From positions 372,001 through 436,000 of the forward strand of contig NZ_JACJSP010000001.1 in NCBI RefSeq assembly GCF_014698235.1: DNA of 64,000 nt, in the 5' to 3' direction. How positions within the stretch are numbered: position 1 is the first letter of the stretch; every line of letters begins with the position of its first letter. Under the pieces are notes generated by a model. It saw only the letters and a list, made by a program, of their open reading frames with translations, had not been told where the DNA came from and ran no database searches. Below, one piece after another: positions 5,982-32,910 of the stretch. The position numbers were made by a program, and so were the translations under genes. This DNA comes from Limnothrix sp. FACHB-406 (GTDB lineage: Bacteria; Cyanobacteriota; Cyanobacteriia; CACIAM-69d).

Positions 5982-7400
5982 TTAGAGCGCGTTCCGCAAT
6001 TCCCGCAATTGTTGCAACCCGGCTTGATCCTGCCGATCGCGGTAGATCACTTCCGCCGCCTGGAGATCGGCCCGCGCGGCCACCCGATCGCCCAAGGAAC
6101 GATGGGCCCTGGCCCGATTCAACAGGGCATTGGCATAGGCGGGCTGTAACCGCAAGGCCTCGGAATAATCCGCGATCGCCCCGAGCCAATCGCGCATCCC
6201 GGCCCGAGCCAACCCCCTGGCGTGGAACGCTTCCGCATAGTCCACATTCACCCGCAGGGCCGCTGAATAGTCCGCGATCGCGGCTTCAAAGTTGCGCCGT
6301 TGATGATAAACCATCCCTCGGTTGACGTAGGCATTGGCATAGAGCGGATCGAGTTCGATCGCCCGATTCAAGTCCGCCAGGGCCTCCCGAATTTGTCCCA
6401 TTTGGAAGTAGCCTAACCCACGCAAATTATAGGCTTCGGCCACCTGGGGATCCACCGCGATCGCCTGGCCGTAGTCAGCCATGGCTCGATTGCGATCGCC
6501 CGCAATGTGGCGCAACAGGCCGCGCTTCACCCAGCCGCTGGCCTGTTGGGGCCGCAGGGTCACCACCCGATCCAAATCCGCCGCCGCGCCCAGCCGATCG
6601 CCCCGGTCAAACCGCAACACACCGCGATTAAACAGGGCTTCCGCCGATTGGGGATTCCGGTCGATCGCCGCGTCAAAATCCGCTAAGGCCGCGGCCCCAT
6701 CGCCCCGTTGGCGGTGAACCGTTCCCCGGTTGATGTAGGCATTCACGTAGTTGGGATCGAGGGCGATCGCCCGATCGTAATCCGTCAAAGCCGCGGCCCA
6801 ATTTTGCTGGTCGCGATAGGCATTGCCCCGGTTGTAGTGAATGGTTGGGTCATCCTCTTTTTGACTCAGGGCCGATGAATAGTCCGCGATCGCCCCGGCC
6901 AGATCGCCCCGGGCCCGCCGCACTACCCCCCGATTCACCAGGGCGTTGGTCAATTGCGGATCCAAACGCAGGGCTTCGGTATAGTCCGCGATCGCCGCTT
7001 CCGCCACCTGCAAGTTCCATTGGGCATTGCCCCGGTTGTAATAGAGCCGAGCCAGTTGGGCCGGGGGCAGTTGACCCGCCGGTTGCAATTCGATCGCCTT
7101 GGAAAAATCCGCCACCGCCCCGGCGAAGTCGCGATTACGGAGCCGTTCTTGGGCCCGGTTGGCAAAAAAGTCCGCAGATTCCTGACCGATCGCCCCTTCG
7201 GAGTTAGGGGTTTGGGCCACCCAGTGATCGGCGGCCAGAGTCAAGTTGGGTTGTGGCAGCGACGGCGCGATCGCCCTGGCCGTTGTGGCTAAGCACAAAC
7301 TCGCAACGGAACCGCTAATTAGGATGATCCCTTTACGCCATTGCCCTTTACGCCACCATTCTTTGCGCCATTGTTCTTCGCGCCACTGTTCTTGTCTCAT
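5982..7400 (-). CDS. Exported tetratricopeptide repeat protein
   Basis: A 472-residue protein with ATG at 7400. After an unusual basic, Trp-rich N-terminus comes a signal-peptide-like hydrophobic stretch (GIILISGSVASLCLATTARA). The mature part (from ~70) is almost entirely TPRs of 34 residues, about eleven in a row, with signatures such as YYNRGNAQWNLQ, AYINRGTVHRQRGD and AYNLRGLGYFQMG. This is a protein-protein scaffold, probably periplasmic or thylakoid-lumenal; no enzymatic domain is present. The stop of the YbjN-like gene at 7421 is only 20 bp upstream of this start, so the two probably form an operon. The N-terminal 20 residues are encoded by a tandem DNA repeat. Confidence 0.85.
   Translation of the reverse strand: MRQEQWREEQWRKEWWRKGQWRKGIILISGSVASLCLATTARAIAPSLPQPNLTLAADHWVAQTPNSEGAIGQESADFFANRAQERLRNRDFAGAVADFSKAIELQPAGQLPPAQLARLYYNRGNAQWNLQVAEAAIADYTEALRLDPQLTNALVNRGVVRRARGDLAGAIADYSSALSQKEDDPTIHYNRGNAYRDQQNWAAALTDYDRAIALDPNYVNAYINRGTVHRQRGDGAAALADFDAAIDRNPQSAEALFNRGVLRFDRGDRLGAAADLDRVVTLRPQQASGWVKRGLLRHIAGDRNRAMADYGQAIAVDPQVAEAYNLRGLGYFQMGQIREALADLNRAIELDPLYANAYVNRGMVYHQRRNFEAAIADYSAALRVNVDYAEAFHARGLARAGMRDWLGAIADYSEALRLQPAYANALLNRARAHRSLGDRVAARADLQAAEVIYRDRQDQAGLQQLRELRNAL
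7334..7395. repeat. 15-bp tandem repeat inside the TPR gene's 5' end
   Basis: Four imperfect units of the type TTACGCCATTGTTCT encode consecutive QWRKE/QWRKG-like pentapeptides just before the signal peptide. Being a multiple of three, copy-number changes would keep the frame. Confidence 0.75.
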
Positions 7401-31988: not shown

Positions 31989-32041
31989 GGAATGTTTGAG
32001 CAAGGTTTTGGGGCACAGGTCAAGTCAGCATCACCGTCGGG

Positions 32042-32082
32042 GCAAGGGGCTTAGGGGGTGTCGTCAAATTGCCTAAACCCCT
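32042..32082 (+). repeat. Degenerate relative of the dispersed palindrome
   Basis: AAGGGGCTTAGG and CCTAAACCCCT could pair around a longer loop. The left arm matches the first 11 bases of the dispersed palindrome, suggesting a decayed copy. Confidence 0.4.
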
Positions 32083-32199
32083 GATGACCTCGCTCTTCAA
32101 ACCAATTAGTTGTAGGGGCGGGTCTCCCCAACCAGCCCCGTCTTTCCTTCGCTCCCTTTATCCCGAATTCACGTTAACCCGGACGATCGCCTCAAAGCA

Positions 32200-32310
32200 G
32201 CCCCCGGGCTGGGCGAGGATTGAAACTATCCAGCTTTCCCCATCTACCCCATCTAAATGAATGTTATTGAAGTGCAGCGCCCGGCCCCCGGGCTGGGCGA
32301 GGATTGAAAC
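32200..32310 (+). CRISPR. Orphan pair of CRISPR-like direct repeats
   Basis: A 27-base unit, GCCCCCGGGCTGGGC followed by GAGGATTGAAAC, occurs identically at 32200-32226 and 32284-32310, separated by 57 bases of unrelated sequence. The ending GGATTGAAAC and the internal GC-rich partial palindrome are hallmarks of cyanobacterial CRISPR repeats. Full repeats of this kind are usually 35-37 bases, so the first ~10 bases have probably diverged, which would leave a spacer of ~47. There are no cas genes in the window. The second copy abuts the SD of the next gene. Confidence 0.6.
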
Positions 32311-32325
32311 AAAAGGAGCGATCGC

Positions 32326-32910
32326 GTGAGTTTGCTCGATGATCTCAGTCAGTTTTTAGAAGCTCGGCTAGAAGCCTTTCTGCGCGAACATCCCGAGCTA
32401 GAGTTGCGGGCCCTAGAAGAGCAACTGCGGGAACAGGAAGCCGATGCCAAGCGATCGATCGGGGAATTACACACCCAAGAACAGCAACTGAAAGCCGACA
32501 TTTGGGAAACAGCCCAAGACGTGCAGCGTTGGCACATTCGCATCGAAAAAGTGGAAGCCGCCGGAGAACACCAACTCGCCGCAGCCGCCCGCGAACGAGA
32601 AGCCGCCCTCTTGCGCAAAGGCAATCAACTTTGGGGACAAATGCAGGGCATTAAAACCCGCATTGAACAGTTAGAAACCCTGGTCTCGCAACTGGCCAGC
32701 AAACGGCAAGAGGTGGCCGCGCGGGCTGCCCAGGCCGATGCGCAAACCCAGACCCAAGCCAAGACCCGCACCAGCCGATCGCCCTGGGACAGCAGCGATC
32801 GGGCCACCTACAGCAGAGGAATGGGAGCCGATCCCCTAGAGGAGCAGTTCCAACGCTGGGAAATGGATGAAGAACTAGAGCAACTGAAGCGCCAAATGGG
32901 CCGCCCTTGA
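32326..32910 (+). CDS. Coiled-coil protein of the cyanobacterial TIGR04376 type
   Basis: A 194-residue, highly charged protein. The start is GTG at 32326 with GGAG eight bases upstream. It is helical almost throughout (ELELRALEEQLREQEADAKR, KADIWETAQDVQRWHIRIEK, REREAALLRKGNQLWGQMQG), with an Ala/Gln-rich end of the coil and a short acidic tail (DPLEEQFQRWEMDEELEQLK). The pattern matches a family of cyanobacterial proteins distantly reminiscent of PspA/Vipp1 coils; its function is unknown. It follows the CRISPR-like pair directly. Confidence 0.75.
   Translation: MSLLDDLSQFLEARLEAFLREHPELELRALEEQLREQEADAKRSIGELHTQEQQLKADIWETAQDVQRWHIRIEKVEAAGEHQLAAAAREREAALLRKGNQLWGQMQGIKTRIEQLETLVSQLASKRQEVAARAAQADAQTQTQAKTRTSRSPWDSSDRATYSRGMGADPLEEQFQRWEMDEELEQLKRQMGRP

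Follow-up and report, generated by a model that had tools for sequence, protein, structure and literature searches.

A two-repeat CRISPR unit that stands directly in front of a conserved cyanobacterial gene is most plausibly what is left, at a rearrangement joint, of a broken type I-C array; that it has gained a secondary function is a small possibility. Specifically, we take it to be the leader-distal remnant of the genome's own type I-C array, split off by rearrangements, and we put the probability of this reading at roughly 0.7. The unit is a known kind of object, and its history is unusually clear. It lies in a 64-kb stretch of DNA, hereafter the window (C1:372001-436000), that belongs to an assembly of 4.50 Mb (G000). 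We searched for the repeat in 39 related genomes including G000, and we compared gene order chiefly with Limnothrix sp. CACIAM 69d (G001), of the same genus, and with a more distant relative (G002). The protein encoded next to the unit, a member of the TIGR04376 family, is 98% identical in G001. Both G000 and G001 are draft assemblies (38 and about 100 contigs, respectively). The gene names DUF3084, XseB, Uma2, YggT and PRC-barrel were given by inspection, with no family-library test.

The sequence GCCCCCGGGCTGGGCGAGGATTGAAAC occurs exactly at 32200-32226 and again at 32284-32310 on the forward strand, so the first-pass annotation had rightly described a 27-nt repeat present twice, 84 nt apart. 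A search at up to three mismatches found no further copy in the 64-kb window, and shuffled sequences gave an expectation of 0 by chance. The full repeat is 37 nt long (GCAGCGCCCGGCCCCCGGGCTGGGCGAGGATTGAAAC), a length set by an array on another contig of the same genome, C3. Repeat 1 keeps only the 3′ 27 nt of this unit, or 30 nt if GCA at 32197-32199 is counted together with a 7-nt internal deletion. The features around the unit, in the coordinates of the window, are as follows.

32130..32175, + strand: 46-nt segment with 93% identity to C3:7397-7442
32175..32190, + strand: last stretch matching the downstream flank of the small ORF in the sister species, TAACCCGGACGATCGC, also present on G001 contig C11
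32197..32226, + strand: repeat 1, with 27 nt exact at 32200-32226; truncated or 7-nt-deleted, canonical hairpin lost
32227..32273, + strand: interval of 47 nt, spacer-like
32274..32310, + strand: repeat 2, a complete and perfect 37-nt type I-C repeat with a 9-bp hairpin
32300-32310, + strand: 11-nt 3′ handle of repeat 2, AGGATTGAAAC
32315..32318, + strand: ribosome-binding site (RBS) GGAG of the TIGR04376 gene, 4 nt past repeat 2
32326..32910, + strand: TIGR04376-family conserved cyanobacterial coiled-coil gene, 194 aa (TIGR04376, E 2.9e-67)

The predicted fold of repeat 2 is a 9-bp hairpin of -20 kcal/mol followed by an 11-nt handle, AGGAUUGAAAC. Repeat 1 is predicted to lack the 9-bp stem in both G000 and G001, so a hairpin in every repeat is found in neither unit; the stem was lost through truncation or deletion in G000 and through substitutions in G001. 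In type I-C systems, Cas5 (Cas5d) cuts the pre-crRNA and leaves an 11-nt 5′ handle (PMC5965380), and the predicted Cas5c cut in repeat 2 is expected between 32299 and 32300. The spacing of the unit is also unlike that of a type I-C array, the 47-nt interval being longer than every one of the 33 spacers in the main array. No cas gene was seen near the unit, nor any flank resembling the leader of the main array, and no sigma-70-like consensus promoter was found in the region, interval included. Upstream, an intergenic stretch of ∼100 nt (window 32034-32140) is a dispersed repeat in its own right, with dozens of copies at 75–90% identity in the genome and the genus.

The repeat itself leads to an effector system elsewhere in G000. 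Searching the assembly returned 37 matches, comprising the 34 repeats of an array on C3, the two repeats of the window and one solitary copy at C3:6955. Two features on C3 are relevant here.

C3:18945-21423, minus strand: main array of 34 repeats with 33 distinct spacers of 33-44 nt
C3:21510-27680: type I-C effector operon

All 37 positions of repeat 2 agree with the consensus of this array, which confirms the CRISPR origin that had been proposed for the unit. The last repeat of the C3 array has an altered 3′ end. Directly upstream of the array are genes for Cas7/Csd2, Cas8c/Csd1, Cas5c, and Cas3, and the Cas8c, Cas5c, and Cas7 proteins pass the NCBIfam cut-offs (TIGR01863, TIGR01876, and TIGR02589, respectively), which assigns the system to subtype I-C. 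The unit is thus detached from its cas genes, as had been suggested, with the cognate cas3-cas5c-cas8c-cas7 set and a matching array both present on a different contig. The expectation of a cas6- or cas10-bearing type did not hold: the system is Cas5c-based, and neither Cas6 nor Cas10 is expected in type I-C. No Cas1 was found anywhere in the G000 assembly by a search that was positive in G001 and in 9 of the 14 genomes used as controls, and the C3 array is probably frozen. G000 thus combines an I-C effector operon and a 34-repeat array with no detectable Cas1, that is, interference without adaptation genes.

Of the related genomes searched, one, that of the sister species, carries a counterpart of the unit. 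In G001, two repeat copies precede the same TIGR04376-family gene; repeat 2 is identical to that of G000 at 36 of 37 positions, the leader of the TIGR04376 gene differs by a single base, and repeat 1 has four substitutions. The G001 interval is 38 nt long, which would fit the 33-44 nt range, and is unrelated to the 47 nt of G000. The gene upstream of the unit is likewise a different one (DUF3084-like). G001 yielded no further complete copy of the repeat, no array built of it, and neither I-C Cas7 nor I-C Cas5. At C10:106295-106324, however, it retains positions 1-30 of the repeat, a 30-nt piece that adjoins the PRC-barrel-like gene bordering the cas locus in G000 and is most simply explained as the scar of a lost I-C locus. 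At the same site (L107, 9296-9516), the repeat piece lies next to a short element with inverted repeats (GAGAGGATGT...ACATCCTCTC), which may be a miniature transposon. Contig C34 of G001 (L184) encodes a Cas4-like/Cas1 fusion followed by a Cas2-like ORF and an apparent array with an unrelated repeat. In G002 the repeat is absent. There, homology to the TIGR04376 gene begins at the ribosome-binding motif GGAGCGATCGCGTG, immediately past the position of the repeat, and therefore all sequence upstream of the RBS differs in G000 and G001 relative to G002. Several partial copies of a family of related short ORFs (about 205 aa in G001) are scattered over all three genomes of the genus (e.g., at C3:303138-305671 and C25:1108-2660 in G000).

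Gene order shows how the surroundings of the unit were assembled. In both G001 and G002, a HEAT-repeat gene comes next after the small ORF that lies downstream of hemC; in G000, the CRISPR unit is found there instead. Because the adjacency of the small ORF and the HEAT gene is kept in the two relatives, the joint in the window is the derived arrangement. Comparison with G001 places this joint at about 32191-32199, just before repeat 1. The HEAT gene of G000 lies on C3 beside a beta-CASP gene, and between the two are an apparent IS remnant and three pieces of the repeat.

G000 C3 (L031), 6889-6900: repeat piece of 12 nt
G000 C3 (L031), 6919-6942: repeat piece, inverted
G000 C3 (L031), 6947-6975: repeat piece

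The partner of the 46-nt segment, C3:7397-7442, sits between the solo-repeat site with its IS remnant and the HEAT-repeat gene. The segment may mark the second half of the HEAT/small-ORF neighbourhood that was split, or else an IS end common to both places. A YggT/psbX block comes after the beta-CASP gene in G001, and in G000 this block directly adjoins the main array at its distal end; a 14-nt match to the repeat at C3:18454, inside the YggT block, may be due to chance. Two other differences in order concern DUF3084/XseB (G000 C6) and the ORF205/Uma2 region (G000 C3:303638/306029). The ten broken ends join up in a single closed cycle (DUF3084-XseB-Uma2-ORF205-PRC/array-YggT-betaCASP-HEAT-smallORF-TIGR04376), in which the DUF3084 joint has a less certain polarity, the XseB block being inverted in G002. 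Judged from gene order, a single closed cycle is the product that would be expected of a series of linked rearrangements, and it is consistent with the TIGR04376 gene as former partner of the array's distal end. All repeat pieces of at least 20 nt outside the array lie at synteny joints in G000 and G001. A generic dispersed repeat, which the first-pass annotation had raised as a possible objection, is ruled out by this distribution.

We propose that an array of this repeat, either the I-C array itself or a second one, formerly had its end immediately before the TIGR04376 gene. Rearrangements in each of the two sister lineages would then have broken it, so that a damaged repeat and a complete one stayed beside the TIGR04376 gene and other pieces came to lie at the remaining joints, while the main array and the effector genes survived on C3 in G000. 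Relative to the repeat, the TIGR04376 gene is on the crRNA 3′ side, where the flank of a leader-distal array end is expected. We infer the adjacency of array and gene from the breakpoint cycle; it is seen in no genome examined. The unit had earlier been suggested to be the decayed leader-distal end of a lost array. A leader-distal remnant is indeed the best-supported origin, but the array was not lost, since it survives on C3. Three observations speak against the remnant reading. G000 and G001 have unrelated intervals, although a leader-distal spacer left undisturbed should be common to both, and the length of 47 nt is atypical of the main array; internal deletions or recombination within the array end must therefore be assumed. 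Moreover, the degenerate repeat is the upstream one, the reverse of a typical array end.

A remnant of this kind could nevertheless have acquired a use. Repeat 2 should remain a substrate of Cas5c wherever transcription runs through it. If the TIGR04376 mRNA starts further upstream, a cut at 32299/32300 would give it a crRNA-like 5′ end and shorten its 5′ leader to AGGAUUGAAAC-AAAAGGAG. That Cas5c may cleave the TIGR04376 transcript in vivo is what we infer from the intact substrate in a genome that encodes the enzyme. In this reading, the array end would have replaced the native upstream region of the TIGR04376 gene, and its last repeat would be a putative working 5′UTR element that makes expression of the gene depend on Cas5c or Cascade, through cutting of the mRNA and/or assembly of Cascade over the RBS, on the crRNA-like 5′ end of the mRNA. 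We consider such co-option unlikely, although several features are in its favour. The second repeat copy had been said to lie close to the RBS of the coiled-coil gene, and it does, ending 4 nt before the GGAG in G000 and just before the GGAG in the sister species; it is also perfect, with its -20 kcal/mol hairpin and 11-nt handle. However, the search for a sigma-70-like promoter in the region was negative, and 36/37 identity between species that are about 5% diverged needs no selection. In addition, G001 keeps repeat 2 without an I-C Cas5 or Cas7, and Cas5c control thus cannot explain its conservation there. That repeat 2 has lasted in G001 is an argument that its retention requires no function dependent on Cas5c.

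The two-repeat unit has probably ceased to serve in immunity. Repeat 1 is without the processing hairpin, and therefore no crRNA should mature from the 47-nt interval. A functional satellite mini-array, whose interval would be transcribed, matured by Cas5c and taken up by the I-C effector encoded on C3 to target a phage or plasmid, is accordingly somewhat less probable still than co-option of repeat 2. It would have cognate effector genes in the same genome, a perfect repeat 2, and an intact 3′ end of repeat 1, the source of the crRNA handle (GAGGATTGAAAC), so that the mature RNA would start AGGAUUGAAAC-UAUCCAGC. Against it stand, besides the missing hairpin, an interval outside the 33-44 nt range, the lack of a flank like the main-array leader, and the lack of a Cas1 that could maintain it. 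No protospacer was found for the interval of either species in 50,697 phage records (blastn-distant) or in IMG/VR (searched with 20-mers, two of them for G000), a result that weighs little because spacers 1-17 of the main array are equally matchless in the phage records. The best of the chance-level matches, to a 20-mer of the G001 interval, extends to 26/38 only. The earlier idea of a mini-array served by cas genes elsewhere therefore holds for the genes, since cas3-5-8c-7 and a 34-repeat array are present on C3, but no protospacer backs the interval as a spacer.

Far less probable is a guide like those of CreR or CreTA, in which a degenerate repeat, a spacer and a repeat steer the effector to a cas promoter. 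The unit does consist of two repeats, one of them degenerate, apart from the main array; however, no seed of at least 7 nt from the 5′ end of the interval matches the cas3 promoter region, the cas operon is not near, and the interval is not kept in the sister species. An anti-cas orphan array is known from E. coli I-F (PMC8616872); here, the I-C cas genes on C3 show no match to the interval of either G000 or G001. It is just as improbable that a mobile element or phage brought in the unit, in the manner of solitary repeat units and viral mini-arrays. The two-repeat size would suit such a source, and an IS remnant, identified by inspection, adjoins the solo repeat on C3, but no IMG/VR contig carries the repeat, phage genes are absent around the unit, and its flanks are core genes at synteny joints. 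Ectopic integration by Cas1-Cas2 duplicates the target site and would not put an exact cognate repeat at a new site; we rejected it on principle, and no Cas1 was found in G000.

Among known systems, a type I-C array (repeat ending GGATTGAAAC, processed by Cas5c/Cas5d) is one of the closest to the unit. Repeat 2 is identical to the 37-nt repeat of the main array, with the 9-bp hairpin and 11-nt handle, whereas the unit as a whole differs in having just two repeats (one truncated), no leader, an over-long interval and a location on a contig other than that of the cas genes. In the Thermotogales, DeBoy et al. (2006; cited in PMC5637354) reportedly treated large-scale inversions and CRISPR sequences together; the likeness goes by the title of that work and concerns another phylum. 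Like other orphan or cas-distant arrays (PMC12814883, PMC8616872), the unit is a small array away from cas genes, and the G001 unit is a true orphan that lacks a cognate I-C effector. The difference is that the route is visible here, with the array broken at joints and pieces of the same repeat at other joints. With solitary repeat units and RNA anti-CRISPRs (PMC10651486), the unit shares an isolated perfect repeat in a probably transcribed region, but it resides in a host chromosome between core genes, and no viral carrier of the repeat was found in IMG/VR.

The case explains the origin of one ‘orphan CRISPR’ unit, in two sister lineages, by an array that was split by rearrangement and left scraps at the joints, rather than by acquisition. 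It also advises caution, as short arrays distant from cas genes may be debris and not satellite immunity. In a weaker form of the co-option proposal, the repeats of a decaying I-C array may have been recurrent breakage points that drive gene-order change in the genus. Finally, with a CRISPR repeat at the end of its upstream region, this conserved gene offers a natural test of the action of Cas endoribonucleases on mRNAs. If the repeat does act in the 5′ leader, the expression of a housekeeping gene would be tied to the state of the I-C system.
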